From: Ilex aquifolium
Lineage: Eukaryota > Streptophyta > Magnoliopsida > Aquifoliales > Aquifoliaceae
Direction of reading: 5' to 3'
Length of the DNA: 64,000 nucleotides
Assembly (NCBI GenBank): GCA_951799425.1
Contig: OX637395.1
Location: 14,114,451-14,178,450 of the forward strand
The notes below the pieces were generated by a model. It made no database searches. It was not told the origin of the DNA and worked only from the letters and a program-made list of their open reading frames with translations. A program made the position numbers and the translations under genes. The first letter of the stretch is position 1; every line of letters starts with the position of its first letter. This document shows positions 10,374 through 46,199 of this stretch, one piece after another.

Positions 10374-10706
10374 TACGTTCGAACGTAGTATGGCGTTCGA
10401 ATGTTGACTCCTGTCTTCTGTGATGGGCGTTCGAACGATGAATGGAGTTTGAACGTGGTACTTACGTAGCTCTTGTCACCCACAGTAGATAGCAAGCCAT
10501 GTCTCATCACCCTGACAGTCTGGTCTTCAAAAAATTCAAAAGAACGTTCGAACGTGGATTGGCGTTCGAACGTTGTACTCAAGTAGCTCTTTTTCTTCTG
10601 TGAAAATAACTACAACACGTTATAAGCCATTGCCCTAGCACTCTTCCAGGGGCCCTTAATTATTTCTAGATGGGCGTTCAAATGTTAATTGGCATTCGAA
10701 CGTTGA
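10374..10706 (-). promoter_or_regulatory. Paired CGTTCGAACG palindromes in A 5' LTR
   Basis: Four pairs of CGTTCGAACG or near copies, each pair separated by 8 bp and so 18 bp centre to centre. The array ends about 115 bp upstream of the TATA box. Binding of a dimeric factor is inferred. Confidence 0.7.
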
Positions 10707-10886
10707 TGTCTTGCTTTAAACTTCTCCAATTTTCTTGCGGAACACGTGGATGTTGCATGAAAGTTTGGTATCTATTAACTTTAGGCTTTTGTGCAGCTTT
10801 GTCCTAAAATTTCATCATTTAAACTCCATCAAAGCATAATTATTCTTGTAAAAGCATAGTAAGATGCTAATTTTAGTAATTCATCA

Positions 10887-11211: not shown

Positions 11212-11512
11212 TGCTTGAATTGAGATTCACCCTAATCTCCAAAGATGATCCCGGTTGTGTGTATATGGCTTATATGAGTAGGTGAGTGTCACTCTCCCTC
11301 GGGTTCGATTCTAAAAATGGGGAAAACGTGTGTGTGAAAGAAAATGTGTGTGTCTGTGTGCAAAATTGCTCCCCAAGTGTAGAGAGACTTGCAATATCGT
11401 GTTTTACTTGGAATTTAGTATTTCAAGGTCGTCTCCTCAGGGAAGGAAGGTCGAATTGTGGTGAAGGTGATTTTTGTATAGAATTGAAAAGTGTAAAATC
11501 TTGTGAGTTTTG
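11212..11512 (-). repeat. Element G solo LTR, fragment 1 of 3 (LTR 3' end)
   Basis: On the minus strand this is the LTR terminus, ending ...CAATTCAAGCA at 11212. It contains the antisense of a block typical of the Athila LTR 3' region (around 11430-11455), similar to D's LTR near 36445-36470. B is inserted after 11512. Confidence 0.65.
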
Positions 11513-13345
11513 TGATTAGTAGTTAAAATTAACATTTTAATATGCCTTTCTAAGACTAATTATACTTTGATGGAGTTTAAATGATGACATTTCAGGACAT
11601 AAATTGAACAAAGATCCAAAGGCAATGAATATCAAACACCCATGCAACATTGCATGCCCTGGAGCAAAATTGGAGAAACTTGGAACAAAGCAAGAACGTT
11701 CGAACGTCAAATAACGTTCGAACGTCCCCTTGAATTATTTGAGGACCAGGCTGCTGAGACATGGCGTGTTGCAGCAAAGAAGGAAAACATTGAGGTACTT
11801 GAGTACCACGTTCGAACGCCAAATAACGTTCGAACGTTCTGCTGAATTATTGAAGGCTGCTGAGTGCAACGTCAAGTTGAACATAGAGTGTTAAAATGGC
11901 TCTCATAGAAGACCACCCACTTGAGTGGGAAGATCAAACCCCATCTGGCGTTCGAACGCTCATCAAGCAAAGACAAAATGAACGTTCGAACGCTCATCAA
12001 GCAAAGACAGATACAACGTTCGAACGCCAAACAACGTTCGAACGTTGTCCCTAGACAGGCTGCAGAGTTGTTGATCTTCTCTCCGGACATTAGGACTTTC
12101 ACTTGGACATTGAAGGCCTTGTACTATTCCTCCACACTACCTTGCTCCCTCCTCTTTGCCTATAATTACTCCCATTGTGGGAGCTTCAAAAGGGAGTTGG
12201 ATTGGCACTAGACCAACATTTCTTAGCTTGTTTATAAAATTATTCTTAGACTTAGGTTTATATTTACTTGCATAGAAGGGGATAGATCATCTTTTGGTTG
12301 CAGATTAACCCTCCAAAAGTGACTAGATTTCTTCTACTTTCAATATTTGTTTCATTCACTTCCATTGCTTGAGCTTCTTTCTTCCATTAGAGGAGTGAAA
12401 CTCTTCCACTTTTCTAGAGCTTTGCCAAAGCCATGAAGGGTGGAACGTAATTCACTTATTCTTCGTCGAAGATCGGCTCATTGTTTATCGTGCTTTACTT
12501 TGTACTCCTATACTTGGAGGGATGAGCATCACTCACTTTTCTAGCTTTGCCAAAGCCGTGAAAAGTGAGTAGTTTCTCATTCACTCTTCAGTAAGAGGTG
12601 ATGGACATGTATAGATCATCCGAAAGTTATATCTGTGCATTTTCAATTATGCTTAATGCTTTATATTCCCTTTGCTTATTGAATGATTGACTGCATCTAG
12701 CAAAGTTAAGGTACTTTGTCTAACCATGAGTACTTTCTATAACATAGATAACTCTTGCATAGAAAGACTCATTGGTTCAAGGCAAGTACGCCGGCTAGAT
12801 CTTCATGACTACCCTTCAATCGTCACCATTATTGTGCCTCAATTAAAGAATGAAAATGGAATATTAATGTCATGGTTGGATGCCTTGTAGAAACACTTGC
12901 TTGTTTGTAGATGGGTTGAGTCTTGGCACAGACAATTCTTATAAACTTCTAGAAAGACGTCGGAACCATGCTCTTAATTCTCACAATCCACCTTTATCTT
13001 CCGATTAACTTGTTGTTGACACAGGAGTTAATTGAGTTATCAAGCACAAGTATAATAAACCTGATGATTAACTACATGTCCAGATCCTCGAACTAAAGAG
13101 TGACCTTTTACATTTGAGCTTATCTTATATTTTGTATAGAAAGATCTCTTGGAAAGAATCCTATATTCTGTCCAGGAAATCCCATACACCACACAACTTC
13201 AAATCTCAAGGGTTGCAATCATTTGGTCTCCACTACTGCTTACCTCAAAACACCAACAATAGTTCCCTGTGGATTCGATCCGGACTTAAACCGAATTATT
13301 ACTACAGCTTGATCGCCTGCACTTTGGTGTACACATTTCGGATCA
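11513..13345 (+). repeat. Element B 5' LTR
   Basis: 1833 bp, TGATTAGTAG...CGGATCA. It matches the 3' LTR at 32441 but lacks one repeat block of about 64 bp present there in the palindrome array. The TATA context is mutated to TATAATTA at 12161. Confidence 0.85.
11693..12047 (+). promoter_or_regulatory. CGTTCGAACG palindrome array in B 5' LTR
   Basis: Includes two perfect 12-bp ACGTTCGAACGT palindromes separated by CAAATA (18 bp centre to centre), a second 18-bp pair near 11807-11837, and single and paired copies linked by the repeated phrase CTCATCAAGCAAAGACA up to 12047. TATA lies about 115 bp further on. Confidence 0.75.
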
Positions 13346-13352
13346 AGATTTT

Positions 13353-13370
13353 TGGCGCCGCTGCCGGGGA
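13353..13370 (+). promoter_or_regulatory. Primer-binding site, tRNA-Asp type (element B)
   Basis: TGGCGCCGCTGCCGGGGA, complementary to the 3' end of plant tRNA-Asp with one mismatch (GCTGCC for GTTGCC). It lies seven bases after the LTR end and would prime minus-strand synthesis. Confidence 0.88.
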
Positions 13371-17049: not shown

Positions 17050-17318
17050 TGATTAACCCTAAATTGTGTGTAAATTCAAAAATCAAAAAACTTGAATTAG
17101 TATAACAAATGCACTAAGAATTAGTACTTAGAGTGAATTAGGGTTTGTGCGGGAATAATACTAGTTATAACATTTTATCTCAAAGTTGCAGGACAAATGC
17201 TGAAATAACGCAAGACCAAGGGAGCAATGTCAAGGGAATGTAAAGAATGAAGGCCAAAGTGTAATTACCCAACGTGAAGACTCAGCATGCATGCAAGTGG
17301 CCGTTTCCAGCAAAGCAC

Positions 17319-17352
17319 CACCGTCCGGACGGTGGGACTGCCGTCCGGACGG
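17319..17352 (+). promoter_or_regulatory. Palindrome pair CCGTCCGGACGG in C 5' LTR
   Basis: A perfect 16-bp palindrome CACCGTCCGGACGGTG (17319-17334) and a perfect 12-bp CCGTCCGGACGG (17341-17352), centres 20 bp apart, about 55 bp upstream of the TATA box. The same pair is at 24120-24153 in the 3' LTR. Confidence 0.75.
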
Positions 17353-17404
17353 TCACCCTTGTCAGACTCAGCCTCATCCCTTCCCCCACTTGCCTTCATT
17401 TGCC

Positions 17405-17412
17405 TATAAATA
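17405..17412 (+). promoter_or_regulatory. TATA box of C 5' LTR
   Basis: TATAAATA in the context GCCTATAAATACTGC, close to the context in B's and A's LTRs. Transcription would begin about 30 bp downstream. Confidence 0.65.
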
Positions 17413-17870
17413 CTGCAGCTTCTTCTGCATTTCCTACGGCCGGACTGAGGCAGAAAAGAAGAGAGAAACAGAGAGATCTGAGAGAGATTCTGAAGTTCTG
17501 AAGTTCTGAAGAGAGAAAAAGAGAGAAAGAAAAGAGAAGAGAAAATACACTCCGGTCCGTGTTATACTTCAGTCCTAAGTCCTGTACTTTTATAGTTTTT
17601 GTGTAGCTTTCAATTCGAATAGTTGAACTGCCGCCACTTTTTCATCTTAACTGATTATAAGAGTGGCTGTGTTTCAATCGTTCCCTGCGAAAGACATTTA
17701 AATTCCGCACTTTCCTTTTTGCTGTAATGACAACTGCTAGCTCTCCTTGCTTGTCTATAGCAATGGAGCGTGAGTAGTTCCGTATATCCTCCGGTTCGAG
17801 GGGAACACATGTATAATATTGATCTGTTTTTGGAATTGCTGATGTTTTATGTATACGTTTATTATATATA

Positions 17871-18150
17871 CAAGACGGGCCAGCTAGAATGACCCCGGCG
17901 TTCCTACCGGTATGGTTAATCCTCCACTGGAATGCTGAGGAAGTTCCACTGACGCCTGGTAGTATTATGTATATACAAGACGGGCCAGCTAGAATGACCC
18001 CGGCGTTTCCACCGAAATGCTGAGGAAGTTCCACTGACGCCTGGTATTACTATATATATAATAATATTGCCTGCTGGAATAACCCCGGTGATCCTCTTAG
18101 TATGGCTAGTCCTACACTGGAACGCTGAGGAAGTTCTACTGTCTATATAT
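17871..18150 (+). repeat. Three diverged tandem units in C LTR
   Basis: Units start near 17871, 17978 and 18064. Each carries ACCCCGG followed by AATGCTGAGGAAGTTC or a close variant. A TA microsatellite ends the array. The array is repeated at about 24672-24950 in the 3' LTR. Confidence 0.7.
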
Positions 18151-19026
18151 ATATATATATATATATATTACAAGATAACCTATTGAATAATTCAAGTATG
18201 CCGCTCAAGTAACTTCACTTTCTGGGTAATATATCTAAATACAGTGTAGCCTAAGAAGCAGCTGTATTATGATTAACTACCACCGGTTGACCTGACAAGT
18301 CGCCGGAAGATAGTCTGTACCACCTGCGGATTTTACTTGAATTAATCAATTGGAACATCTAAGCCCAGTGTAGCCTAAGAAGCAACTGTGCTATATATTA
18401 CCACCGGTGTAGCCTAAGAAGCAGCTGTGTTATGATTTATTATATATATATACGTATTTGCAATCATGAGATCAAGTGAATAACTCAAGTATTCCTCATG
18501 AATGGCTTGTCCTTCTGGTTTGCTTGGGTTAATCATTTGACATAAATATACCCAGTGTAGCCTAAGAAGCAGCTGTGTTATAATATATATATACATCAGA
18601 CCTGCCGGTTAGCTTGCCAGTAAAATGGAAGTTAACTGATGTGAGGTAGCAATTCCGTAACAAGACCGATGTAAAGCATGTGGGATCCTTGAACTGAAGG
18701 ATATCTTTTATATTTCTGTCATTAATCTGTGTTACTTACGCATTTTATTTCTGCACCTTTATTCCACCTGTTGTTTTAGAATCAAGTTTTTAACACCGTC
18801 ATTAGACTAAGCTCACACCACAAGCAATCAAACATCAAACTACTCCAAACAACCTTTTTATTGCTTTATTTTTATTTTATTTATTTTATTTTATTTTAAT
18901 TACTAAAACTCTCTGTGGGATCGATACTTGGACTCAAAAACCAAGAAAACTACAATTCGACCACTTATACTTGGGTGTAATATAATAATATAATTCTGAC
19001 ACACTAAAAAGTGCGAATCAAGTTTT

Positions 19027-19044
19027 TGGCGCCGTTGCCGGGGA
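19027..19044 (+). promoter_or_regulatory. Primer-binding site, tRNA-Asp (element C)
   Basis: TGGCGCCGTTGCCGGGGA, a perfect complement of the plant tRNA-Asp 3' end (17 of 17 plus one), six bases after the LTR end. Confidence 0.92.
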
Positions 19045-19181
19045 GTTAAGGTAATTGTAAAATAAAATAAAATAAAATATAAAATATAAAATTATAATTA
19101 AAATAATATTTATAAAAAAAAAAAAAAAAATTTTTTTTTGTTTGTTTGTTATATATGTTTATAGTTTGTTATTTTTAGTCT

Positions 19182-21677
19182 ATGTCTGTTCATTCATCAG
19201 TAGGTTCTGTAAATCAGTCAACTCCTTCATCTTCCTCATCTTCTTCATCTGCATCTACACAAGAATCATTTAACTTAAGTATGGCTCAAAATGTACCTAG
19301 GGAGGAAGAGGCTAGAGAACAGGAAATAGTTCAAAATACTAGACCATTAAGAGAATATTTACATCCTACTAGAACTAATGTTCCGTCATGTTTTGTTTTT
19401 CCAACAGACGCTCCAAATATTAATATCAAGCCAGGAACAATACAACTACTACCACAGTTCCATGGTTTGGAAGATGAAAATCCTTATGTTCATATGAAAG
19501 AATTTGAAGAAGTCTGTGGAACTTTGCAAGATAGTTCTGAAATGATTAAATTAAAACTTTTTCCTTTTTCGTTAAAAGATAAAGCTAAACTATGGCTTAA
19601 TTCTTTAAGAGCAAATTCTATCACAAATTGGCAAGCTTTACAAACTGAGTTCTTTAAAAAGTTTTTTCCTGTGCATCGTACTAATGCACTAAGACGTAAA
19701 ATAATGAATTTTGTTGTAAAGGAAAAAGAAACTTTTTATCAATGTTGGGAAAGATTTAAAGATCTTCTCCAAGCTTGTCCACATCATGCATTTGAAAACT
19801 GGACTTTAGTTGGTTTCTTTTATGATGCTCTTCCATCTGCAATGAGACAATTTGTTGAAATGATGGCTCAAGGAGAATTTATGAGTAAAAATCCTGAAGA
19901 AGCATTTCAATTTTTTGATACTATTTCAGAGAGTTCCCAGATGTGGGACTCAACTTCTTCAAACATTGTGGAAAATAGGTCATCTATATCTGAAAGAGGG
20001 AAATATGTTTTAAAAGAAGATGATGACCTAAGAGCTAAAATAGCTAGTTTATCTCGAAAATTAGAAGCCTTAGAAATGAAAAAACTTAAACAAGTATCTG
20101 TTGTAACCTCTACTGATCAAGTGTGTGAAATTTGTGCGTTGTCAGGACATCCTGCTGGGGAATGTCCAACTATACCTGCCTTTAAAGGAGTTTTAATTGA
20201 ACAATCAAATGCTATTCCAACTTATAATAAACCATATTCAAATCCATATTCTGAAACTTACAATCCAGGATGGAGAAATCATCCGAATTTTAGTTGGAGA
20301 AATACACAACCTACAAATCAAACACAAGGTCCACCACAACCACAAAATCAACAACAGTACCAACCTTATCAACCTCCTCAAAGAAGAACTCTGGAAGACA
20401 CTATGAATCAATTTATTCAGAGTCAAATGAATTTTAATACTCAAACAAATCAAGCATTTAATGATTTTAAAGCTCAAACTTCCCAGAGTATTGAAGATAT
20501 TAAGAGTCATCTTGCTAAGTTGACCCAGTCCTTGAGTACGTCAGAGAAAGGAAAGTTTCCTTCTCAACCTAAACCTCCACAAAGTCAGAGTCATGTTAAT
20601 TCTGTATCCTCTGAATCTTCGTCAAATCAAGTACAAGCAATTACAACACTAAGAAGTGGTAAGGTAATTGATAAAACCATCAAACCTAAGATTTCAAAGA
20701 AAATACGTGAGTCAATTCCTGTAAACGAACCACTTGAATCTGAACCTTTAATCAAAAAGCAACCAGGAGTACAAAGTGAAAAAGATCTGCCATGTCCTAT
20801 CCCTTTACCTTTCCCTCAAAGAGTCAAGCAACTTCAAACTGAAAAAGATCAATCTGATATTCTCGAGCTATTTAAACAGGTAAAGATTAATATTCCATTA
20901 TTAGATGCAATAAAAAGAGTTCCAGTTTATGCTAAATTCCTAAAAGATCTTTGCACAATAAAAAGAAGAACTAATGTACCAAAGAAAGCATTCGCAACTG
21001 AGCAAGTCAATATAATACAACATAATACACTTCTTAAGTACAAAGATCCGGGTAGTCCTACAGTCTCATGTATTATTGGAAATTTTCAAATTGAACAAGC
21101 TCTACTAGATCTTGGAGCCAGTGTTAATTTAATGCCATATTCAGTATATACACAACTAGGGTTAGGTGAATTGAAACCTACCAATGTTACACTACAATTA
21201 GCAGACCGGTCTATAAAAACTCCACGAGGAATTGTGGAGGATGTTCTTGTCCAAGTTGATCAATTCTATTTTCCAGTAGATTTCATTATCTTAGACACTC
21301 AGCCAGTTTTGAATGCTTTCACATACATTCCTGTCATTCTAGGTAGACCATTCCTAGCTACATCAAATGCATTGATAAATTGTAGGAATGGAGTCATGAA
21401 GCTTTCATTTGGAAATATGACTAGTGAATTGAACATCTTTAATGTGATAAAGCACCCAGGTGAGGAGGAAGAAATTTGTGAGGTAGATGAAATTGATAAG
21501 ATTGTAGAGGAAAAAGTTAACACCTCTTCTTATTCTGACCCTCTACAAGTCTGTTTGATTAATTCTGTTATTGATAGTGGAAATCCTGATGTCCAATTTT
21601 ATACTGATTTGTTAAATTCTTCGCAGAAAGTATCAGGGAATGTAAGAAACTCTACTTGGGAACTTAAGCCCGATTGA
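19182..21677 (+). CDS. Intact Gag-protease polyprotein of element C
   Basis: An uninterrupted 831-residue frame. The N-terminus is Ser-rich (about residues 1-45). The Gag core spans about 60-260, including LKLFPFSLKDKAKLWLNSL and ENWTLVGFFYDALP. A zinc knuckle CEICALSGHPAGEC (CX2CX4HX4C) lies near residues 315-328. A Gln/Pro-rich stretch and coiled-coil-like region follow, then the DLGAS aspartic protease near residue 643 with [19 protein letters not shown]. The frame ends WELKPD*, at the linker that leads into RT in B and D. It would form particles and process itself. The start is the first ATG (19182), 138 bp after the PBS. The open frame in a very young copy suggests a functional protein. 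Confidence 0.9.
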   Translation: MSVHSSVGSVNQSTPSSSSSSSSASTQESFNLSMAQNVPREEEAREQEIVQNTRPLREYLHPTRTNVPSCFVFPTDAPNINIKPGTIQLLPQFHGLEDENPYVHMKEFEEVCGTLQDSSEMIKLKLFPFSLKDKAKLWLNSLRANSITNWQALQTEFFKKFFPVHRTNALRRKIMNFVVKEKETFYQCWERFKDLLQACPHHAFENWTLVGFFYDALPSAMRQFVEMMAQGEFMSKNPEEAFQFFDTISESSQMWDSTSSNIVENRSSISERGKYVLKEDDDLRAKIASLSRKLEALEMKKLKQVSVVTSTDQVCEICALSGHPAGECPTIPAFKGVLIEQSNAIPTYNKPYSNPYSETYNPGWRNHPNFSWRNTQPTNQTQGPPQPQNQQQYQPYQPPQRRTLEDTMNQFIQSQMNFNTQTNQAFNDFKAQTSQSIEDIKSHLAKLTQSLSTSEKGKFPSQPKPPQSQSHVNSVSSESSSNQVQAITTLRSGKVIDKTIKPKISKKIRESIPVNEPLESEPLIKKQPGVQSEKDLPCPIPLPFPQRVKQLQTEKDQSDILELFKQVKINIPLLDAIKRVPVYAKFLKDLCTIKRRTNVPKKAFATEQVNIIQHNTLLKYKDPGSPTVSCIIGNFQIEQALLDLGASVNLMPYSVYTQLGLGELKPTNVTLQLADRSIKTPRGIVEDVLVQVDQFYFPVDFIILDTQPVLNAFTYIPVILGRPFLATSNALINCRNGVMKLSFGNMTSELNIFNVIKHPGEEEEICEVDEIDKIVEEKVNTSSYSDPLQVCLINSVIDSGNPDVQFYTDLLNSSQKVSGNVRNSTWELKPD

Positions 21678-22895
21678 TCTATCCTCTAATGCACTTCTTG
21701 TATATAGTAGTTAAAATTTTCGTTGTTTTATGTTTTTATGTCTTTTGTATAGTTTCTTTATTTGTCTTTTATATTAGAATCTTATACTATAAATATCTCT
21801 CGCTGCAAGACCTAATTAGTAATTTTCTATTTTTATAGTGAGGATAATATTTAATTTAAGTTGGGAAAATATAAGTGTGAATTTACTTGTTGTTTTTAGC
21901 ATGATAATTTTTATTTAAAAAATTATGTTTGTCTTTGTGACTGGCAGACGTTAAAGAACCGGATAAGGAGTCAATTTTAAATAATTTTTCTTTGAGTCAT
22001 TTTTATATGTTTATGGATAAAAAAAAAAAAAAAAAAAAAAATTTTTACTTTCTTTCACTCACCCTTTTTAGTTTATGCACTTTCAATTTCTGCACTTAAA
22101 ACTTAAAGTTATGTTTTATGTTTTTTATGTTTGTGTGATTTGAACTTAGTTAAATTTTGCTTATATGTTTATATATGTTTGAACTAATATGTTTTAATTT
22201 TCAGTATGTTTTAATTGTCTTTGTTAAAATGAGAGCATACATTGCTAAAGTAGGAAGTATATTTCATATAATTCACAGTTAGATTAGGATTATATTCTAA
22301 TGCCTTGCGAAAATACTCTCAATCTGATCTCATGAGACTGTCATATTTTAGCTGTACGTTATCTCAATATTTTTATTCGAACTTAACCTTAGAAGCACAA
22401 ACAGATGTCTTTATTTTTGAAAACCATGCAAAATACTACACTCTTTCTATATATAGTGGAGATGTAAAAACCAAATGCAGAATTAGAGCCATTCTTTCTT
22501 GGAGAGAAATGCTACATCTACTCAACTACGAATCTTCGATTCAGCGGTAACTTTTCTTTGAATAATCTCATTATATTTGCTTTGATTAGCACGTCTTGAA
22601 ATATATTATGTACATTGCCCTTAACTATTTATCTAGAAAGAATATAAATATAGGATTTCTGGAAAATGATCTTAGGCCATGTTTGATTAATTTTGAGCCT
22701 TAACCATTTCTTTTACAAAATTATATCATTAGTCAACCATGTTTGAGCCTAAAATAGTATAAATTCTTTTCATGAAACCTGAAAAAGACCCGAGCCAGAT
22801 AAAAATATGTTAAACCTACCTGAGCTACATAATTTTCTTGCACCCTCTTTTAAATCAACAGGATACCAAAAAAGTGAGATGGAGCATAAAATGCA

Positions 22896-22927
<32 letters not shown>

Positions 22928-23850
22928 CATGAGTTGAGAACTGGATGGAGCGTAAAACGCACCCGTTCAACAAAAAGCGAGATGGAGCATAAAATGCACT
23001 CGCCAAGAAAGTGAAAAATGAAAAAAGAGAGAGCCAAGAAAGTGAAAAAAAAAAAAAAAAAATGGAAAGAATACATAAAGTTTTAAGAGGAATGCCAAAA
23101 GGTAGCTTTTGAACCCCATAAACGTCGTTTCTTAAACTCTAAACCCAATGGCCACAATACAACCTAATAAAAGTCCTTTTTGATTCCAGAAATCATATAT
23201 TTGCATCCAGTCTAGCAATCTAAAAAGGAAAATGTTAATAATATATTTAATACAGTGTTAATATTCTTTCATGAGATTATGTCAATTTCCAGTTTATTTA
23301 ACATAACCGCTCCTTTCTATTACATGTGAAATAATTTGTTTTGTTATCAATATTCCAATCACATGTAAAATTATAAGAACAGTCACTATAACATGTGTGC
23401 TATTCTTACTGAGTGTATTCCAGGAAAGGATTGACATCAAGACTACCATGAAAGAGGGTAATATTTTTCAAGTAATTTCTGAAAATAAAAACATCACTAC
23501 ACACACACACAAGTTTTCATAAAAATATATAGATAATACTACACCCAACATATGATTCTCTCAAGGTGATCAGAAAAAGGAAGCATTCTAGCAAGACAGA
23601 AGAAATATCATCTTAAGCATGCATGTGAAAAATATGGAATATGCATTCCTAATTACTGAAGTTTGTAGGTAGCTTCACTGGAAACCTTCACGAGACACAA
23701 CTCGTCCACTAGGGATCACCTAGGGGTTTAATGGCTTATTGCATATGCTAAATGCAATCGTACAAAAATCTACGAAAATGATTTTACCCCACTTGTATTA
23801 TATTTTCTTTTTATTTTACTAGGGACTAGTAAAGTTTAAGTTAGGGGGTG
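21678..23850 (+). other. Element C non-coding interior
   Basis: No convincing gene. It keeps pieces seen in A, B and D: a decayed hairpin/G-tract (about 21838-21880, G-tract shortened to GGG), the TTTGTGACTGGCAGACG block (21937-21966), and from about 22660 the long block shared with B 31250-32440, including GATCTTAGGCCAT and TTTCTTTTACAAAATTATAT. A-runs lie at 22020-22041, 22897-22926 and 23047-23062. A tract ending TTAGGGGGTG (23841-23850) is the likely polypurine tract. Confidence 0.7.
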
Positions 23851-25819
23851 TGATTAACCCTAAATTGTGTGTAAATTCAAAAATCAAAAAACTTGAATTA
23901 GTATAACAAATGCACTAAGAATTAGTACTTAGAGTGAATTAGGGTTTGTGCGGGAATAATACTAGTTATAACATTTTATCTCAAAGTTGCAGGACAAATG
24001 CTGAAATAACGCAAGACCAAGGGAGCAATGTCAAGGGAATGTAAAGAATGAAGGCCAAAGTGTAATTACCCAACGTGAAGACTCAGCATGCATGCAAGTG
24101 GCCGTTTCCAGCAAAGCACCACCGTCCGGACGGTGGGACTGCCGTCCGGACGGTCACCCTTGTCAGACTCAGCCTCATCCCTTCCCCCACTTGCCTTCAT
24201 TTGCCTATAAATACTGCAGCTTCTTCTGCATTTCCTACGGCCGGACTGAGGCAGAAAAGAAGAGAGAAACAGAGAGATCTGAGAGAGATTCTGAAGTTCT
24301 GAAGTTCTGAAGAGAGAAAAAGAGAGAAAGAAAAGAGAAGAGAAAATACACTCCGGTCCGTGTTATACTTCAGTCCTAAGTCCTGTACTTTTATAGTTTT
24401 TGTGTAGCTTTCAATTCGAATAGTTGAACTGCCGCCACTTTTTCATCTTAACTGATTATAAGAGTGGCTGTGTTTCAATCGTTCCCTGCGAAAGACATTT
24501 AAATTCCGCACTTTCCTTTTTGCTGTAATGACAACTGCTAGCTCTCCTTGCTTGTCTATAGCAATGGAGCGTGAGTAGTTCCGTATATCCTCCGGTTCGA
24601 GGGGAACACATGTATAATATTGATCTGTTTTTGGAATTGCTGATGTTTTATGTATACGTTTATTATATATACAAGACGGGCCAGCTAGAATGACCCCGGC
24701 GTTCCTACCGGTATGGTTAATCCTCCACTGGAATGCTGAGGAAGTTCCACTGACGCCTGGTAGTATTATGTATATACAAGACGGGCCAGCTAGAATGACC
24801 CCGGCGTTTCCACCGAAATGCTGAGGAAGTTCCACTGACGCCTGGTATTACTATATATATAATAATATTGCCTGCTGGAATAACCCCGGTGATCCTCTCA
24901 GTATGGCTAGTCCTACACTGGAACGCTGAGGAAGTTCTACTGTCTATATATATATATATATATATATTACAAGATAACCTATTGAATAATTCAAGTATGC
25001 CGCTCAAGTAACTTCACTTTCTGGGTAATATATCTAAATACAGTGTAGCCTAAGAAGCAGCTGTATTATGATTAACTACCACCGGTTGACCTGACAAGTC
25101 GCCGGAAGATAGTCTGTACCACCTGCGGATTTTACTTGAATTAATCAATTGGAACATCTAAGCCCAGTGTAGCCTAAGAAGCAACTGTGCTATATATTAC
25201 CACCGGTGTAGCCTAAGAAGCAGCTGTGTTATGATTTATTATATATATATACGTATTTGCAATCATGAGATCAAGTGAATAACTCAAGTATTCCTCATGA
25301 ATGGCTTGTCCTTCTGGTTTGCTTGGGTTAATCATTTGACATAAATATACCCAGTGTAGCCTAAGAAGCAGCTGTGTTATAATATATATATACATCAGAC
25401 CTGCCGGTTAGCTTGCCAGTAAAATGGAAGTTAACTGATGTGAGGTAGCAATTCCGTAACAAGACCGATGTAAAGCATGTGGGATCCTTGAACTGAAGGA
25501 TATCTTTTATATTTCTGTCATTAATCTGTGTTACTTACGCATTTTATTTCTGCACCTTTATTCCACCTGTTGTTTTAGAATCAAGTTTTTAACACCGTCA
25601 TTAGACTAAGCTCACACCACAAGCAATCAAACATCAAACTACTCCAAACAACCTTTTTATTGCTTTATTTTTATTTTATTTATTTTATTTTATTTTAATT
25701 ACTAAAACTCTCTGTGGGATCGATACTTGGACTCAAAAACCAAGAAAACTACAATTCGACCACTTATACTTGGGTGTAATATAATAATATAATTCTGACA
25801 CACTAAAAAGTGCGAATCA
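23851..25819 (+). repeat. Element C 3' LTR
   Basis: 1969 bp, near-identical to the 5' LTR. The palindrome pair is at 24120-24153, TATA at 24206. Differences seen are T to C near 24898 and one fewer TA unit. Followed by TSD GACTT. Confidence 0.92.
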
Positions 25820-29036: not shown

Positions 29037-29301
29037 ACGTTCGAACGCCAAGTAACGTTCGAACATTACCTACTTGCAATACTCAGTCTCTGATGGAAAC
29101 AAAAAGTACTGGGAGCTCAGCATGTTCGAACGCCAATAGAACGTTCGAACGAGAATACCACGTTCGAACGCCAATAACACGTTCGAACGCCATGAGCTTA
29201 CTTTGGTCTCTAACAAAACTCAAAAGTACTGGGAGCTCACCACGTTCGAACGTCAGTCTCACGTTCGAACGTTCTTTTTAAAATTCTACTACATGTTTGA
29301 A
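29037..29301 (+). promoter_or_regulatory. Internal palindrome cluster upstream of ORF3 (element B)
   Basis: Four pairs of CGTTCGAACG or near copies, centres 18-19 bp apart, plus one degenerate single copy, linked by two copies of AAAAGTACTGGGAGCTCA. The palindrome matches the array in B's LTR. The cluster ends about 235 bp before the ORF3 start. Confidence 0.72.
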
Positions 29302-29316
29302 CGTCAACCCTTAGGC

Positions 29317-29324
29317 TATAAAAG
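29317..29324 (+). promoter_or_regulatory. Candidate TATA box of internal ORF3 promoter (element B)
   Basis: TATAAAAG in GGCTATAAAAGTCTGG, 16 bp after the last palindrome copy and 213 bp before the ORF3 ATG. The homologous site in A is TATAAAAAC. Confidence 0.5.
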
Positions 29325-29536
29325 TCTGGTTCATCTTCTTCACTTCAAAAACCCCCAAAATTTTGAAAAATCACCAAACCCTAGAGTGCCTCTTCATTAC
29401 CCAGCCCTCAAAATACCTCTCATTCCCAATTTCTACCCCAAATCGACCATACCAAAGCCATTCCCACCTCATTCATCCTCATTCTCACAAGAAAATCAAG
29501 ACTTTCAAGCCCTAACACCCCCAAACCCGAAACACC

Positions 29537-30630
29537 ATGCCTCCAAGAGTCAAGCTCCTTGCTAGGCGCAACACACCAAGTCAAAAGCCTAATATGGTGG
29601 AGGAAGTCGTTGAGGAGAGAGAAGGGAGACCCATTACATGAAGGTATGATAAAACCCTCTTTCCTACCGCGCTCAAGGGAGACAGGTATGAAATTTTTTA
29701 CCGAAACCATGCTCTGGTTTGTGATCGGGATGTGATATTGAGTGACTTTGCGGAGTTGGGTATTTTTTAGAACATGGGGAGGAGGGAATGGACGTTATAC
29801 TTGCGAAACGGCGGAGATGCCGTGATTGACTTGGTGCGGGAGTTTTACTCCAACACCGAAATGGTCAATGGGGAGATACGAAGCTATGTGAGGGGGGCTC
29901 ACTTTGGTGTAGATGAGGACTATATTCGGGAGCTTAGACAAGAGGTACCTCGAGTACCAAGTCCTACCTACCCCCCGAGAAAGAAGGTGGCCATGGATAC
30001 TATGGGGGCGGAATTAACCGGGTTGGCAACTTTTTCGTGGGCAAGGAAGAAATTTTTTCGACATGGGGAGTTGACTGATAAGTATAAGATGCTGAATTTG
30101 ATTGCGGTCTCGAACTTCTCCCCAAGATGGCCCGTCTACTATACACACTTGGGAAGGGCCACAACATAGACCTCCCCTCACTAATTCTGACCGAGATGAA
30201 GAAGGGATGCGATGTAAAGAGGAACTCGCTCCCTTTTGGCACTTTGGTCACGGAGATGTAGAAGGACCACAGGCTTAGGGTGAGGCCAGAGATGAAGATA
30301 CAGAGGCCGATGAGACCACTCAACAAGGCTTCCTTTCGGAGGAGCCAAGGTCACAGTGGAGGCCCGACGGCTAGACAGGATGTGCCCCCTGCTCGAGGCA
30401 TCGATGAGGTGCAGGATATGTTGGATGAAGAGGAGGAGAGAGAGCTAGATGCTGAGAGAGCCCAGGAGCAGACTCGGGAGGAGGCAGGCCCTAGCACCAG
30501 CACCAGCACCCACCGATCACTGAGAGAGATTATGTTTGGCATAGAGTCCAAGCAAGCTGAGATTCTCCGACAGCAGGAGGAGATTCTCAGCTATCTGAGG
30601 GGTGGAGCTGGTGGAGCTGGCGGAGAGTGA
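29537..30630 (+). pseudogene. Element B ORF3 (putative plant transposon protein-like), broken
   Basis: Starts MPPRVKLLARRN. Blocks in order: EEREGRP, LFPTALKGDRYE, CDRDVILSDFAELG, then WTLYLRNGGDAVIDLVREFYSN and YVRGAHFGVDEDYI, PSPTYPPRKK, DKYKMLNLIAVSNF, LPFGTLVTEM, then a charged coiled-coil-like C-terminus (ERELDAERAQEQ, FGIESKQAEILRQQEEIL) and Gly-rich end. Breaks are TGA 29639, TAG 29768, a frameshift near 30130 and TAG 30259. The order of blocks matches D ORF3. It occupies the position called 'env-like' in Athila elements, yet I see no signal peptide or membrane span. Confidence 0.65.
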
Positions 30631-32440
30631 GAGAGACATTTATGTTCTTGAGTGTGGCTGTGTATTTATTACTTCTTTTATGGATGATTTGAGTCTTTTG
30701 TTTTTCTGCTCAACTATCATATTTTGTGAAATGAATGGTTCAATTTTATCACTTTTATCGTTTTAAATGCATGTGTAGAATTAGCACTTTATTGTTATTT
30801 GTTAATGAATGAAGGAACAAATGTGGATTCCAAAGACTATTTGTTAAAGTGACTAACCACATGATCGGTTTGACATCGCACTTAGCAACCTAGACTTAAA
30901 ACCATATTTCTTGGAAAAATGGTATTCTCTCTATGCTTAAAATGTCAAATGTACATTGGTATTTGTTATTCTTAAGGTACAAGATGATTGGACTCGAAAA
31001 TGGAATCGATATATAACCGACATTCCCTAAAAAAACCCGACATAACCAGTGGAGATAACAAAGGATACCATGGTAAGTTTTGAGCCTTGCAATGCTTTTG
31101 AGAGACGATCAACATTTACTCAAGTAAGGTCTTTCACTCTCAATTTTTGAATAATCTCATTAAACTTATTTTGATTGACGCAACTAAAGCGATCTATTGA
31201 CATATCCTACAAGGAATCTTTCATATGACGCATGCATATGCACATACTTGAGAAAGGATCTTAGGCCATATTTGACTAAATTTTGAGCCTTAGCCATTTC
31301 TTTTACAAAATTATATCCCTAGTTAGCAGAGATTGAGCCTTTAATGTACGATCTTTTTTTCCAAATAGCCCGTATGATAACAAAAAACCACAAGAAAATG
31401 TACTTGACATACCTTTGCTATCTAATTTTCTTGCACCCTCTTATAAATCAGTATGATACAGAAATTAAAAAAAAGAAAGGGAAAAAGACTATGGTGGCTA
31501 CTATTCAATGAAAAGAGAAGTCGGTGGAAACAATTGAAAAAGAAACAGAAAGACAAGAAATTGCCAAGAAAGTGAAAAATGAGAAAAATGAAAGAAAGAA
31601 ATATCATTTCTAGGCAAAATGTCGACAAGCTAGAAAGAGGTGTGCTACATTACAAAATGAAAGGATAGCTTTTTAATACCATTGACGTCATTTCGTTAGC
31701 CACTGAACTCTGGCCACATTACAACCTATAAAAAGCCCTAATTGATCTCAAGTCTGATGCATGTATGTGTCGTCAGCCAAAAGTGGGGTATGGTAAATAG
31801 TGTTTCTTTAATTGCATCAATATTCTTCCATGAGATTATGCCAAACATGATTAGTTTGCTTCTGTAAAACTTCACTCCCATACTAATTGTGCATGAGATT
31901 TTTTCGATTGGCCATCCTCTAATTACATACCCTTTTGAGAGACAAGTCACTATAATCAGAGGGAATTTTTGCTGAGAGCATTCTACGAGAGATTTGTGAA
32001 ATCAAAGCTATCCATGGAAGGTGGAAACGAGGAATGTTTGTTATATAACAATTCTTGTTGCTAGAATGATCATTCTGACTACACAGGGAATCCCAAATGC
32101 CAATGTGACAAGTGCTAATTTGTGCATTGAATAAATACCAACGAAAGAGGGGTGTGCGGGAGATAAGTCGAGATTGAGGGTTAGGTGTCCCGACGACCAT
32201 GATGATAATTTACTTTAACCATCAATCCCACATACACATCTATTCAACTGAAGTTTGTGGGTAGCTTCACTGAAAAACCCTCACGAGACAACACTCATCC
32301 ACTAGGGTAAACCTGGTTGTTTAACGGCTTGTTGCATACGCTAAATGCAACCGGATGACCTACGAAAATGGCATTGTAAATAAATCTCATTTAATTGCTC
32401 CTGTATTACTAGAGACTAGCAATATTTAGGTTGGGGGTTG
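30631..32440 (+). other. Element B non-coding 3' interior with polypurine tract
   Basis: No gene. It includes the long block shared with C (22660-23850) and, in part, with D (43240-44200), with GGATCTTAGGCCAT, GAGCCTTAGCCATTTC, CATTACAACCTATAAAAAGC and CATGAGATTATGCCA as landmarks. It ends in AGGTTGGGGGTTG (32428-32440), the polypurine tract beside the 3' LTR. Confidence 0.65.
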
Positions 32441-34337
32441 TGATTAGTAGTTAAAATTGACATTTTAATATAACTTTCTAAGACTAATTATACTTTGATG
32501 GAGTTTAAATGATGATATTTCAGGACATAAATTGAACAAAGATCCAAAGGCAATGAATATCAAACACCCATGCAACATTGGCATGCCCTAGAGCAAAATT
32601 GGAGAAACTTGGAACAAAGCAAGAACATTCGAACACCAAATAACGTTCGAACATTGCCTTGAATTATTTGAGGACCAGACTGCTGAGACATGGCATGTTG
32701 CAGCAAAGAAGGAAAACACTGAGGTACTTGAGTACCACGTGTGAACGCCAAATAACGTTCGAACATTCTGCTGAATTATTGAAGGCTGCTGAGTGCAACG
32801 TCAAGTTGAACATGGAGTGTGAAAATGGCTCTCACAGAAGACCACAGGACACTTGAGTGGGAAGATCAAACGCTATCTGGCGTTCGAACGCTCATCAAGC
32901 AAAGACAGAATGAACGTTCGAACGTCATCCAACATTCAAACGCTCATCAAGCAAAGACAGAATGAACGTTCGAACACCATCCAACATTCGAACGCTCATC
33001 AAGCAAAGACAGATACAACGTTCGAACACCAGACAACGTTCGAACGTTGTCCCCAGACAGGCTGCATAGTGGTTGATCTTCTCTCCGAACATTGGGACTT
33101 TCACTTGGACTTTGAAGGCCTTGTACTATTCCTCCACACTACCTTACCCCCTCCTCTTTGCCTATAAATACTCCCATTCTGGGAGCTTCAAAGGGGAGTT
33201 GGATTGGCACTAGACCAACATTTCTTAGCTTGTTTATAAAATTATTCTTAGACTTAGGTTTATATTTACTTGCATAGAAGGAGATAGATCATCTTTTGGT
33301 TGCGGATCAACCCTCCAAAATTGACTTGCTTTCTTCTACTTTCAATATGTGTTTCATTCACTTCCATTGCTTGAGCTTCTTTCTTCCCTTAGAGGAGTGA
33401 AACTCTTTCACTTTTCTAGAGTTTTGCCAAAGCCGTGAAGGGTGGAACGTGATTCACTTATTCTTCGTCGAAGATCGGCTCCTTGCTTATCGTGCTTTAC
33501 TTTGTACTCCTCTACTTGGAGGGATGAGCATCACTCACTTTTCTAGCTTTGCCAAAGCCATGAAAAGTGAGTAGTTTCTCATTCACTCTTTAGTAAGAGG
33601 TGATGGACATGTATAGATCATCTGAAAGTTATATCTGTGCATTTTCAATTATGCTTAATGCTTTATATTTCCCTTGCTTATTGAATGATTGACTGCATCT
33701 AGCAAAGCTAAGGTACTTTGTATAACCATGAGTACTTTCTATAACATAGATAACTCTTGCATAGAAAGACTCATTGGTTCAAGGCAAGTACCCCGGCTAG
33801 ATCTTCATGACTACCCTTCAATCTTCACCATTATTGTGCCTTAATTAAAGAATGGAAATGGGATATTAATGTCATAGTTGGATGTCTTGTTGAAACACTT
33901 GCTTGTTTGTAGACGGGTTAAGTCTCGGCACAAACAATTCTTGTAAACTTCTAGAAGACGTCGAAACCATGCTCTTAATTCTCACAATCCACCTTTATGT
34001 TCTTATTAACTTGTTGTTGACACAGGGGTTAATTGAGTTATCAAACACAAGTATAATAAATCGGATGATTAACTACATGTCCATATCCTCGAACTAAATA
34101 GTGACCTTTTACATTTGAGCTTATCTTATATTTTGTCTAGAAAGATCTCTTGGAAAGAATCCTATATTCTGTCCAGGAAATCCCATATTTCGGATCTCAA
34201 GGGTTACAATCACTTGGTCTCCACAACTGCTTACCTCAAAACACCAACAATAGTTGCATGTGGATTCGACTCCGGACTTAAACCGGATTATTACTACAGC
34301 CTAATCGCCTACACTTGGGTGTACACATTTCGGATCA
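32441..34337 (+). repeat. Element B 3' LTR
   Basis: 1897 bp, TGATTAGTAG...CGGATCA. The palindrome array (about 32624-33050) has one extra repeat block compared with the 5' LTR, and several copies have decayed, mainly G-to-A or C-to-T changes in the CpGs. The TATA box TATAAATA is intact at 33163-33170. Confidence 0.85.
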
Positions 34338-34977
34338 AGATATTTTGTGTTTTGGTGAGTAGTGTTTTTTGAAAAAATGCTAGGAAACAAGGTTGGCTTA
34401 TCTGAAGAAGTCATTCCAATGGGAATGTCAAATCAACTCAATTCATTATGCCAATGGTATTTCGGTGCTTGATTGATTCGTAGGAAGTGAGAGACTAATG
34501 TGGAGATGTACGGTCAAGCATACCCCAAGGCAAGTCTAGGGTGTATCAAGAGCTCACAACCACGTCCGCACTCAACCTATTCAAACCAAACACTTTACAC
34601 TACGAGGAAGAATGGAGGAGAGTTGATTTAGCATACCCAAGAGGAAGTCTTCCTTTGATTAGCCAACTAAAAGCTTACCTACTCATAATAGATGCAAGAA
34701 CATACACAATGTAAAGAGAAATGGTGAAGAAATAAAGCTTAGAACTTGTATTAATGCAAAAAGAAGTTAAACTACAAAGACAAGTTCATTTCATTCCCAA
34801 AAGTAAAGCTTGGAAGGAAAAATCCAAATGTAGACATGGTAAATACAAGAATATGTAGCTAAACTTGAATACACTTGTAATAAAGGAGATTAAAATGCAA
34901 GAAGTAAAGATTACAAGTGATTTAAAGCTTACTACAACTGAAATGGAGAAGAAAATGCAAAAACCTAACTTTCTCTC
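34338..34977 (-). repeat. Element G solo LTR, fragment 2 of 3
   Basis: DNA between B and D. On the minus strand it aligns loosely with D's LTR (for example the TTTAGTTGGC stretch near 34665 matches D LTR near 36053), so G belongs to a D-related LTR family. It ends with CTCTC, the D target site. Confidence 0.6.
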
Positions 34978-36688
34978 TGATTAGCACAATATATTGTATG
35001 ATTCACATGTGCAAATCAATGTTAATTGAATGGTTTTTATAATTAAAAGATGGAGTTTTACTTCATAATTTCTCAATTTAGCATTTGATGATTGCAGGGT
35101 AAAAGTGTGCAACATAACCATCTTGAGGCTTCTCAAATACATCAAGATGAATAAGGGTGAAGGAAAACCAAAGGCAAGTTCAACAGGGGAGGACAGGAAG
35201 AAATTCAGGAAAATAAGGCTAGCGTACCAGTACGCGTGCCGGTACGCTGACCCTACTGGAGTGCATCGTACCGGTACGCGTACCGGTACACTGACCCTAC
35301 TGGAGTGCTGCGTACCGGTACGTGTACCGGTACGCCCGAAGGAATTTTGCCCAAATTCTGCGAATTTGTCTCAGCCGATTTTTGTGGACCCCACCATGTC
35401 TTCTCCCTCCTGCCTCCTGCAAGCCCACAACACTATTCATTGTGTTCACACCTCTTTTGGACTATTGATTGCAAGAGAGCATTAATGAGAGGAGTGAGAA
35501 GTTGAGCTGCTGGGTCTTGAGGAGTGCCCTGCCATGCCCTGTCCAAGCCATCACCTGCAACCTATTGATGGAGATCACTTCTCCAGGCTACTCCATGTCT
35601 CCTGCACGTTAGGGTTGATGAATGATCTCCATTACAAGGGCTGGATAGGAGGGAAAGGAGGGGGAGAGGATTATTGGATGGATTATGCATTAGAGGGATA
35701 TAGAGAGAGAAGCTCTAAGCGTAGAGATGATGAATAGTAGATTCTAGAGAGAGAAAGTTGTAATTTTCACTTATTTTCCAGTACATTGCCTTGCATTCTT
35801 CTGTAAGACTCTTTAGAACTTTCTTCAATGCCATTAATGTTAGCTCTTCCATGCTTTTCACTAGTTTAATGTTCTCTTCCACTTTCTACCATTAATGAAT
35901 TAAAGTTCTTCATTTTCATAGCTATGTAATGGGTTTAAATGCATTTTCTTGTAGCTCATGAATTCTTGTACTTTGTAGCTTTAGAAGTTCATAGATTTGC
36001 AATGCACTTTCATTACATAGTCATTTCCATTCCAAGTATGAGTAGCTAAATCCTTTAGTTGGCAAGACCAAGAGGGATCTCCTTTGGGGATACCATTTCA
36101 ACTCTTTCTCCTCCTTCCCTTTAGAGTCAAATGGTTCATTTTGACCGGATGGAAGATGGATGAGTCGATGAGTCTTTGATAAACCGTAGGCCTAGTCACG
36201 GTTTATGCTTAGATACTCACCGACGTCATCCTCGGCTTTCCGTGATTCAAACGTTCATTCATGCTCAATCGGAGGAGTGATTTGAGTTGAGGTGGTACAC
36301 CCATTGGAGTGATCTCTTGGAATTGCCAACACTTGTTTTATCATTACATCTTCATTAGCATACACTTCACAAACCAACTCTCAAGACAAAAGATTTTACA
36401 TTTCCGTTTTTCACCAAATCACTTCAATCTTGATTCACTTCCTTCCCTGTGGATACGACCTTGGAATACTCTTCCAAGTAACTCACAACACACGAAAGTC
36501 TCCTTGCGATTGGGGAGCATTTTTGTGCATACATATCCCATATTTACATCTTCCCATTTCCCTTTCCTCATTGCCCTTTCTTTTCACACTATCCCAACGG
36601 GGGAGAAATCCTTCCTTCCGCTCATACATTGCATCATTTGAGGGATAGCATTTTAGGGGTTAGGAAAGACATAGTTTCCAATCAATCA
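34978..36688 (+). repeat. Element D 5' LTR
   Basis: 1711 bp. It has the GTACCGGTAC palindrome array at 35223-35335, a purine-rich stretch (35640-35760), and an R/U5-like pyrimidine-rich 3' part containing TTCCCTGTGGATACGACC. I see no strong TATA box; GGGATATAGAG near 35696 is a weak candidate. Small ORFs in it are repeated in the 3' LTR and have no recognisable motif. Confidence 0.92.
35223..35335 (+). promoter_or_regulatory. GTACCGGTAC palindrome array in D 5' LTR
   Basis: Perfect and near-perfect CGTACCGGTACG units in adjacent pairs (centres 12 bp apart), separated by the repeated linker CTGACCCTACTGGAGTGC. The 3' LTR copy (46765-46866) has one unit fewer. Units here show two or three C-to-T or G-to-A changes. 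Confidence 0.75.
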
Positions 36689-44685: not shown

Positions 44686-44744
44686 TCGTACCGGTACGCT
44701 GACCCTACTGGAGTGCTGCATACCGGTACGCGTACCGGTACGCC
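44660..44744 (+). promoter_or_regulatory. Internal copy of the LTR palindrome module upstream of ORF3 (element D)
   Basis: About 85 bp that matches D's LTR palindrome segment closely, including the flank CAGGAAA.TAAGGCT, units of GTACCGGTACG and the linker CTGACCCTACTGGAGTGCTG. It ends 247 bp before the ORF3 ATG. A possible TATA variant (TTTAAA) lies near 44815. Confidence 0.75.
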
Positions 44745-44990
44745 TGCCTGAATCGATTTTTTTTTAAATGGGTTTTTTATTTTAGATGTCAGTTAACCCT
44801 TCATTTCCCTCCTCATTTAAACTCGTTTTCTCCCAACCGAAATACCTCTTGGAGTTCATACCCTTTCCCATTCCTCCTCTTTAAGAACCCACCTTCTCTC
44901 AAATCCCAAATCCCTTGAACCCTTGTTCCACCGAACCCCCCTCAAGCCCAAATCTTCCCGTTTTTCTCCATTATCTTTCAAAATCCTTCA

Positions 44991-46199
44991 ATGGCCCGAA
45001 CAAAAGTGCCCGGTCCTGATCTTCCTCAACATGAGGAGCCCTCTGGTCGCAAGCGGAGTAGTGAGGAGATTGAAGAACTCAGGGAGAAGAGGAAGAAGGC
45101 GAGAATGGAGGCTCGGATGAAATGGATTGGCGACAGGGGTGTGACCTGTGAGCGAAACCTCGATGTCATATCTCTCACACGACGGAATGAGGTGGTCCAA
45201 GCCATCGAAAACCATGGTATGCATTTCTGGTTTGAGGCAGTTGAGGGGTATAATCTATCCATGTGCAGGGATTTTTATCAGACCCTTGGGTTGGCTGATG
45301 AGGGCGGGGTAGAAATTTTGAAGGCCAAGGTTCGGGGTAAAGTAATCATAGTGACCCCTGATGTCATTGCGTCCCTCCTCGGGGATTACCAGAGACCACC
45401 CGATGATCCACCGACCTACCCTGACAATGTCACTCAGGCGAAGACGATCAATGAACTGGTGGCGTTGATGTATGCGGACCCCAGCATGTTTAAGGGGCGG
45501 GTGCAGAGTGGGAAGTTGAAACACTCTTATGGGTTGTTGAACAAACTCCTCCACTACAATTTGCTGCCTAGGGGTGCTGAGAAGAAGCCGAATTTGGAGA
45601 AATTGGCTTTGTTGGATGCGGTTATGTCTGGAGTGCCAATTGATTTTGCTCAGTTTATATGGGAATAGATGAAGGATTTTGCCAACACACAGAAACCTCA
45701 GATTAATTTGCCTTTTGGGAGCTTAGTGACCCGCTTGTGCAAGCTCAGCAAGGTTAGGCCCTACGTGTTTGATCAGATTACTCCCCCTGAGACTGGGGCC
45801 ATTGGCAGGACAAGCAAGAAGAAGAGGAAGGCTCTGAGTCGGGGAAGGCGAGCTGCTCCTGTTGGCACTAGATCTGAGGCCCCTGGTGCTTCATCTTCTG
45901 CCGGGCCATCAACTGCGGAACCTGTACGCTCGACTGATCAGCGTCTTGATGACATTGAGGCGACGTTGCAAGGTTTTGGGGAGATTTTGAGAGAGCTGTT
46001 CAGCCATACTTTCCCAGGGAGACCTATTCCTAGAGTGGCCCCGCCAGCTGCTGCAGGCCCATCTGCCCCTTCTGCCCCTTCTATCCGTACTGATGTTGAG
46101 ATGGGTGGAGATGATACTGAAGAGGGGGATGGTTCTGAGAGTGGGAGTGAGTATGATGAGGGTGATGATAGTGATGAGGGAGAGGGAGATGATGAGTAG
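44991..46199 (+). pseudogene. Element D ORF3 (putative plant transposon protein-like), one in-frame TAG
   Basis: 225 codons, TAG at 45666-45668, then 176 codons in the same frame. The N-terminus is basic and coiled-coil-like (RKRSSEEIEELREKRKKAR). The core has AVEGYNLSMCRDFYQTLG, VRGKVIIVTPDVIASLLGDY and PPTYPD, the order seen in B (LVREFYSN, YVRGAH.., SPTYPP), then LPFGSLVT. A nuclear-localisation-like TSKKKRKALSRGRR and an Ala/Pro/Ser-rich part precede a strongly acidic tail (DDSDEGEGDDE). Nothing looks like an envelope protein: no signal peptide, no membrane segment. The TAG could be a recent mutation (CAG or TGG) or read through; gag-pol is intact, so I treat it as a single lesion. Confidence 0.65.

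Follow-up and report, generated by a model that had tools for sequence, protein, structure and literature searches.

Family-specific palindromes shared by the LTRs and the region upstream of ORF3 in Athila-like retrotransposons of Ilex aquifolium

Results

Nested Athila-like elements in the window

The window, i.e. the whole 64-kb stretch of DNA analysed, consists of nested Athila-like LTR retrotransposons: A, B, C (inserted within B) and D (Table 1). We take the lineage to be Athila (Ty3/gypsy OTA), a name that follows published papers rather than a phylogeny. A and B are related copies, being 77-82% identical. D is from another family, and its gag-pol ORF is open over 1944 aa; Pfam gives it the domain order protease-RT-RNase H-integrase, with an extra ORF (ORF3, PF20167) after pol. 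RT precedes integrase in D, the reverse of the Sirevirus (Ty1/copia) order, and the Pfam domain order, as far as it goes, has one RNase H region, an additional RNase H being the mark of the Tat clade. The Athila-type layout of A and B is assigned by homology. ORF3 pieces from all three elements match PF20167 (Transposase_32), with scores under the curated cut-off in the case of A and B (45 bits; one B piece scores 38.9 bits), and the D ORF3 reads as two pieces because of one in-frame stop.

Beyond its gag-protease ORF, element C is open over at most 92 aa at a stretch, and so lacks both pol and ORF3. Its LTRs are 99.85% identical to each other, and it is a young non-autonomous element. The C palindrome, CGTCCGGACG, which the earlier note did not mention, is absent between the C LTRs, where there is no internal cluster. 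A C LTR also contains a diverged direct repeat of ~145 bp (17860-18088, 74.7% identity).

Table 1. Positions of LTRs, palindrome clusters, TATA boxes, leaders and ORF3 in the window
Feature	Position	Strand	Remarks
Element A		-	cut off by window start
A ORF3 ATG	1641	-	ORF3 broken in this copy
G-poor leader, A ORF3	1649..1848	-	4% G, lowest-G 200-nt window of A
TATA box TATAAAAAC, after A cluster	1853..1861	-	
A pre-ORF3 cluster of CGTTCGAACG	1875..2165	-	5 exact, 10 within 2 mismatches
A 5′ LTR	9109..10875	-	limits by homology with B
A 5′ LTR palindromes	10376-10702	-	
TATAAATA in A 5′ LTR		-	114 nt after last palindrome site
B 5′ LTR	11510..13353	+	8 exact palindromes, 11697-12044
Element C, nested in B	17050..25819	+	one gag-protease ORF, 831 aa
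C LTR palindrome CGTCCGGACG	17322, 17342; 24123, 24143	+	twice per LTR
B pre-ORF3 cluster of CGTTCGAACG	29038..29303	+	6 exact, 9 within 2 mismatches
TATA box TATAAAAG, after B cluster	29317..29324	+	
G-poor leader, B ORF3	29339..29536	+	5.5% G in 29339-29538, lowest-G 200-nt window of B
B ORF3	29537..30630	+	broken in this copy
B 3′ LTR	32438..34345	+	11 sites within 2 mismatches, 32626-33046
D 5′ LTR	34978..36688	+	CGTACCGGTACG sites 35223-35334
D pre-ORF3 module	44687..44742	+	3 sites
G-poor leader, D ORF3	44793..44990	+	5.5% G in 44793-44992, lowest of D
D ORF3 (PF20167)	44991..46199	+	two separate open pieces
D 3′ LTR	46521..48219	+	sites 46766-46865

Palindrome clusters, their spacing and the ORF3 leader

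The palindrome CGTTCGAACG occurs exactly 26 times in the window, against 0 expected by chance, and GTACCGGTAC 11 times, against 0.01 expected; CGTCCGGACG occurs four times. These three share the form CGT-N4 or N6-ACG, with three CpGs each, and have TTCGAA as core in A/B and CCGG, i.e. the CCG-CGG order, in C and D; none has a CGG-CCG core. As the earlier note had claimed, the clusters before ORF3 in A and B use the palindrome of their own LTRs, CGTTCGAACG. With up to one mismatch allowed, all 39 CGTTCGAACG sites fall inside the five A/B LTR or pre-ORF3 modules, and the same type of placement holds for the 14 sites of CGTACCGGTACG (D) and the four of CGTCCGGACG (C); the module limits were drawn round the clusters, whereas the placement of the clusters in LTRs or before ORF3 was not so chosen.

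The sites tend to come in pairs. In both the LTR and the pre-ORF3 clusters of A/B, neighbouring sites lie 17-19 bp apart more often than under random placement (P 0.0035 or less; 6/9 spacings before ORF3 in A, 5/8 in B, 4/7 in the A LTR and 3/7 in the B 5′ LTR), the five in the pre-ORF3 cluster of B being of 18-19 bp, and paired sites are separated by spacers of similar form at the two places. D has spacings of 12 and 32 bp in both LTR and pre-ORF3 module, and the paired spacing is likewise the same at both ends in F377 (23 bp) and in C/F406 (20 bp), F377 and F406 being ORF3-bearing elements from elsewhere in the host genome (see below). The comparison of spacing covered A/B, D, F377 and C/F406.

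The distance from the last (decayed) site to the ORF3 ATG is 233 nt in A and in B, and 248 nt in D, in good agreement with the earlier values of about 235 and 247. A TATA box following the cluster, also reported earlier, is present in A and B and recurs in F377, beginning 13 nt (A and B) or 12 nt (F377) after the last pre-ORF3 site; it does not extend to D, whose LTRs and pre-ORF3 module both lack a TATAWA in the 400 nt that follow the cluster. In A, B, C and F377, the LTR cluster also lies upstream of a TATA box.

In plants, a leader low in G is a general mark of 5′ untranslated regions. The 200-nt window lowest in G ends within 8 nt of the ORF3 ATG in each of A, B and D. The F377 leader has 3.7% G, and a window of 1-5.5% G is present within 1.5 kb upstream of ORF3 in 30/30 further loci (L013-L042); the leaders of F406 and F389 are only moderately G-poor (10.5-11%), the lowest-G window of F406 lying elsewhere. 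There is no ATG between the TATA box and the ORF3 start in B. In A, B and D the last 200 nt ahead of ORF3 are free of ATG, but this was dropped as evidence (P 0.37-0.50), because missing upstream ATGs are not unusual in leaders so low in G.

Constraint in A and B

A and B had been regarded as independent instances of the same design. This view could not be upheld: their pre-ORF3 modules align over ~800 bp with a score of 489, compared with a shuffle maximum of 58, and their LTRs are likewise homologous, such that A and B constitute one inherited case, not two. Between A and B the palindromes are 90-93% identical and the flanks 59-67%, i.e. 81/90 vs 130/193 positions before ORF3 (Fisher p 3e-5) and 74/80 vs 155/261 in the LTRs (Fisher p 4e-9). 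All 15 palindrome differences fall on CpG positions, 12 of them being CpG transitions, and the non-CpG palindrome positions are all identical (36/36 before ORF3 and 32/32 in the LTRs). The two LTRs of B, whose divergence dates from after insertion, behave differently, with 73/80 palindrome and 286/301 flank positions identical (p 0.28, not significant); the palindromes are no better kept than the flanks in this pair, hence they are not intrinsically slow-evolving. In the B 3′ LTR, 10/11 departures from CGTTCGAACG are CpG transitions. Within an inserted copy the palindromes would thus appear to decay like methylated CpGs, yet they were held between lineages. The flank before ORF3 is itself partly conserved like the palindromes, since 36% of its 10-column windows match at 9 or more columns.

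Copying from the LTR to the pre-ORF3 position

Stretches shared by LTR and pre-ORF3 region suggest that pieces of the LTR enhancer were copied to the ORF3 promoter in D, F377 and F406, the direction of copying being our interpretation. In D, a 60-bp stretch before ORF3 is 59/60 identical to the D 3′ LTR, with weaker LTR homology extending from this module in the upstream direction only. In F377, a further family whose 377-aa open frame and score are shared by ~15 of the 150 scored hits, CGTCCGGACG occurs seven times before ORF3 and four times downstream, with 23-bp pairs at both, and the modules have common 40-51-bp stretches at 82-85% identity, some of them inverted. In F406, the presumed LTR shares 87% identity with the C LTR, and ORF3 is preceded by a composite LTR module (dyad, spacer, dyad) in inverted orientation; this module is an exact inverted match to the F406 LTR over 36 bp (the longest direct match is 12 bp) and is 97% identical to the C LTR. 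The same inverted module is present in F389 over 38 bp (97% to the C LTR). The inversion fits an enhancer bound as double-stranded DNA. F377 and F406 both use CGTCCGGACG, and their modules and LTRs are otherwise alike only in short stretches. In A/B, little LTR-to-pre-ORF3 homology is left beyond the paired unit, and the copying, as judged from the alignments, appears to be old.

The earlier note had considered that a match arising through copying would count against co-regulation. This is in part what we see in D, F377 and F406, where the match appears to be renewed by copying; the A/B palindromes outlast their flanks, and there the match is apparently kept by purifying selection.

Pairing of LTR and pre-ORF3 motifs in the host genome

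The host genome (800 Mb, 103 contigs) yielded 6,661 candidate places for PF20167, of which 150 were scored, and the upstream regions of 39 scored loci were inspected (L013-L042, i.e. 30 loci, and nine others). Upstream of ORF3, 29/30 of the loci L013-L042 have an AGCGC/GCGCT cluster (at least 4 in 250 nt), L024 being the one that lacks it; these best-scoring hits are probably largely one related group and hence are not independent.

An LTR was sought for 16 ORF3 loci, comprising A, B and D; F377, F406, F389, F384 and F387; G1-G4; and L015, L042, L030 and L029, which were hand-picked from L013-L042 and are the four of those 30 loci whose downstream DNA entered the analysis. B and D have known LTR limits, and those of A (with B) and F406 (with C) are set by homology; for F377 and the six AGCGC loci a downstream stretch serves as the presumed 3′ LTR. 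Each downstream stretch is presumed to belong to the same element as the ORF3; those of F389 and G2 clearly take in another element. The tabulation of LTR against pre-ORF3 palindromes that had been proposed could be completed for 11 of the 16 loci, and in 11/11 the LTR has the motif class found before ORF3. The classes number four by core (TTCGAA, ACCGGT, TCCGGA and AGCGC), and off-class counts are zero across the paired loci, save for two AGCGC in the F377 LTR stretch. The claim that families keep the two modules matched therefore stands for these 11 loci, with the qualifications that A and B are a single case and that the AGCGC group, which makes up 6/11 (L015, L042, L030, L029, G3 and G4), matches at the half-site level only. 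Its LTR side is weak, with 2-5 AGCGC copies per stretch and shuffle P values of 0.01 (L015), 0.032 (L042), 0.002 (L030), 0.06 (L029), 0.10 (G3) and 0.025 (G4). GCCTAGGC is repeated before ORF3 in L015, L042 and G4, and occurs in 0/6 downstream stretches of the group. The pre-ORF3 AGCGC count of L029 (6) is within the shuffle maximum (8), and L030 has the longer form CCAGCGCTGTT.. in common with its downstream stretch.

Five of the 16 loci (F389, G2, F384, F387 and G1) are unpaired. The downstream stretch of F389 has six copies of CTACCGGTAG and apparently derives from another element. In this stretch (L054, reverse-complement 176-365) the six copies, mostly with a 42-bp period, are followed by a T/C-rich leader, and the array is apparently the pre-ORF3 module of another, D-like element. 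G2 is followed by a B-type LTR, and its own upstream motif resembles, by eye, a decayed CGTCCGGACG. F384 and F387 (L049 and L055, about 436-760) have a GATCGATC/TGATCGATCA cluster before ORF3 with no matching LTR cluster in 6.3 kb downstream, where GATCGATC has at most one copy, and G1 has no repeated palindrome. C, the sole ORF3-less element examined, lacks an internal cluster; its ORF3-bearing relative F406 has one.

Searches were also made in other collections. A palindrome-pair scan of viral contigs returned three (GC 0.54-0.60, with long ORFs), which were judged by eye to be phage or bacterial and set aside as relatives, and a pol search of viral contigs gave no match. The pol search of a prokaryotic collection gave one contig, L004 (DAIEQH010000041.1), which ends before any ORF3; it is filed under a Candidatus Nomurabacteria MAG and encodes an Athila pol, and so has the look of a plant contaminant. 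Downstream of the L004 pol is a small ORF with CxxC motifs.

The ORF3 protein

Basic runs and an acidic tail are present in two ORF3 relatives, P0003 (387 aa) and P0007 (396 aa), which lack a strong hydrophobic segment. Their AlphaFold models are of very low confidence (mean pLDDT 39.6 and 37.9), and in these a helix of 26-35 residues is predicted near the C terminus. Pfam searches with ORF3 recognised no DNA-binding domain, with no DUF1985 match listed, and the hits of a PDB sequence search were all ATP synthase b subunits, none with an E value better than 0.33. The maximum 19-residue hydropathy is at most 1.93 in the D ORF3 pieces, P0003 and P0007, and is 2.04 in P0010, in the conserved core. 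In two other ORF3 relatives, a hydrophobic stretch lies in frame just upstream of the usual start (maximum hydropathy 2.86 in P0002 and 2.40 in P0006); it may be either a real signal anchor or a mistranslated pyrimidine-rich leader.

Discussion

Our preferred interpretation, to which we assign a probability of roughly 0.64, is that the clusters serve two promoters as matched enhancer modules and that a single dimeric factor, which may be host- or ORF3-encoded, reads both. Each family would possess clusters of paired, CpG-containing, dyad-symmetric sites at its LTR promoter and at an internal promoter of ORF3, or at least at an mRNA 5′ end, the internal module being a copied LTR enhancer. By binding both modules, a dimeric sequence-specific factor would switch genomic RNA and ORF3 mRNA together, and the use of different dyads by different families would keep the control of each family separate from that of most others. 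Pairs of perfect dyads are the kind of target that a dimeric DNA-binding protein would likely read.

Several observations are consistent with regulation at two promoters, including the agreement of motif class in all paired loci across four classes, the better preservation of the A-B palindromes relative to their flanks, which is not seen for the B LTR pair, and a paired spacing that departs from random in A and B and agrees between the two ends in A/B, D, F377 and F406. The G-poor leader that abuts the ORF3 ATG, the TATA box just past the last site in A, B and F377, and the contrast between C, without ORF3 or internal cluster, and its relative F406, with its inverted LTR module, point in the same direction. 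Counting against two promoters under shared control are the lack of a TATA box in D, the less G-poor leaders of F406 and F389, the weakness of the AGCGC group, the five unpaired loci, the lack of a cluster in L024, and the conserved patches in the flank before ORF3.

With respect to the identity of the factor, we tentatively propose that ORF3 (PF20167) may itself be a nuclear, dimeric DNA-binding regulator that recognises the dyad of its own family. As part of a feedback loop, it would drive or de-silence its own promoter together with the LTR, and it would serve in trans C-like elements that keep the dyad but have lost ORF3. Alternatively, and in our view also doubtful, the factor is a host transcription factor, the families having captured different host sites and copied the LTR enhancer before ORF3; this would be a sub-case of matched modules at two promoters. 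The use of CGTCCGGACG by both F377 and F406, which are dissimilar beyond the motif and short stretches, and the observed LTR-to-internal copying are in accord with a host factor, as is CGTAC in the D dyad, which we take to be the core of plant SBP/SPL sites. The turnover of specificity between related Athila families argues in the other direction, as does the finding that dyads with up to one mismatch occur nowhere else in the window, which says little about host genes. It is improbable, we consider, that neutral copying accounts for the matches, i.e. that LTR segments are occasionally copied beside ORF3 and matches persist only through recency; the near-identical D module, the F377 stretches and the exact inverted F406 copy would fit, but the A/B palindromes are kept while their flanks differ at 33-41% of aligned positions, little residual LTR homology remains in A/B beyond the paired unit, and the position before a G-poor leader recurs across families with different motifs.

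A role at the RNA level, with the dyads pairing in the transcript (as hairpins, in dimerisation or as siRNA traps), seems similarly improbable. The four clusters tested fold better than shuffles (z -3.4 to -6.2), and palindrome-rich LTR regions of maize Sireviruses are described as small-RNA hotspots (PMC5311732); however, any self-complementary repeat would fold in this way, and pairing RNA arms would not seem to need the palindromic form that every single copy has. Least probable of all, in our assessment, is the reading of ORF3 as an env gene of retroviral type whose expression depends on splicing, the cluster being incidental. The historical env-like naming (PMC7264820 and PMC11728184) and the hydrophobic stretch of P0002 and P0006 favour this older view, but the D ORF3 pieces, P0003 and P0007 are without such a stretch, the basic runs, acidic tail and C-terminal helix (from low-confidence models) are not in its favour, and nuclear localisation is predicted for a PF20167 Athila protein in a published study (PMC11728184).

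There are clear parallels with known systems. Bousios et al. 2010 (PMC2829016) described Sireviruses with palindromic repeated motifs (RM) in the LTRs and before ENV; among 13 RM-bearing elements, linker copies are present in the 9 with ENV and in none of the 4 without, a pattern taken there to support an internal ENV promoter, itself unidentifiable by those authors, and six ENV-bearing elements without RM boxes are mentioned. Like the palindromes described here, the RMs are element-specific, lie in the LTR upstream of the TATA box and again before an extra 3′ gene, and their clusters, as that source relates, form CpG islands. The differences are that Sireviruses are Ty1/copia and the present elements Ty3/gypsy Athila, and that, according to the same text, the RMs have a CGG-CCG core in all but one case, which A/B (TTCGAA) do not. 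The present design is thus the Sirevirus design in Athila with other palindromes, and we recognised no account of it for Athila in the open-licence literature. What is new against the Sirevirus precedent is the evidence of constraint between lineages, copying in inverted orientation, spacing that agrees between the two modules, and a non-autonomous relative with a matching dyad.

The VANDAL/VANC systems also have short motifs in non-coding clusters that differ between related families and turn over through local repeats, and, reportedly, VANC21 binds its motif and VANC brings about a loss of methylation (PMC5735166 and PMC10398659). VANDALs are DNA transposons, unlike the LTR retrotransposons here, whose ORF3 matches PF20167; by analogy, VANC/VANDAL may be seen as a functional model for ORF3 as a regulator. 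Maize Grande gene23 offers a precedent for an additional 3′ gene that has its own promoter and whose product is nuclear, but, unlike ORF3, it is antisense, and matched palindromes are unmentioned in the available portions of PMC7264820 and PMC11963269.

Athila elements, with their extra ORF, are abundant in plant genomes. If the LTR and ORF3 promoters share a family-specific dyad, this would provide a direct binding assay for the ORF3 protein, as well as a rule for which non-autonomous elements it serves. It would also suggest that Sireviruses (Ty1/copia) and Athila (Ty3/gypsy) reached, or share, one regulatory design. Were ORF3 the regulator, the changing dyads would be evolving private addresses, a retrotransposon counterpart of the VANC systems; the analogy suggests that retrotransposons, much like VANDAL transposons, may evolve private regulatory addresses of this kind.
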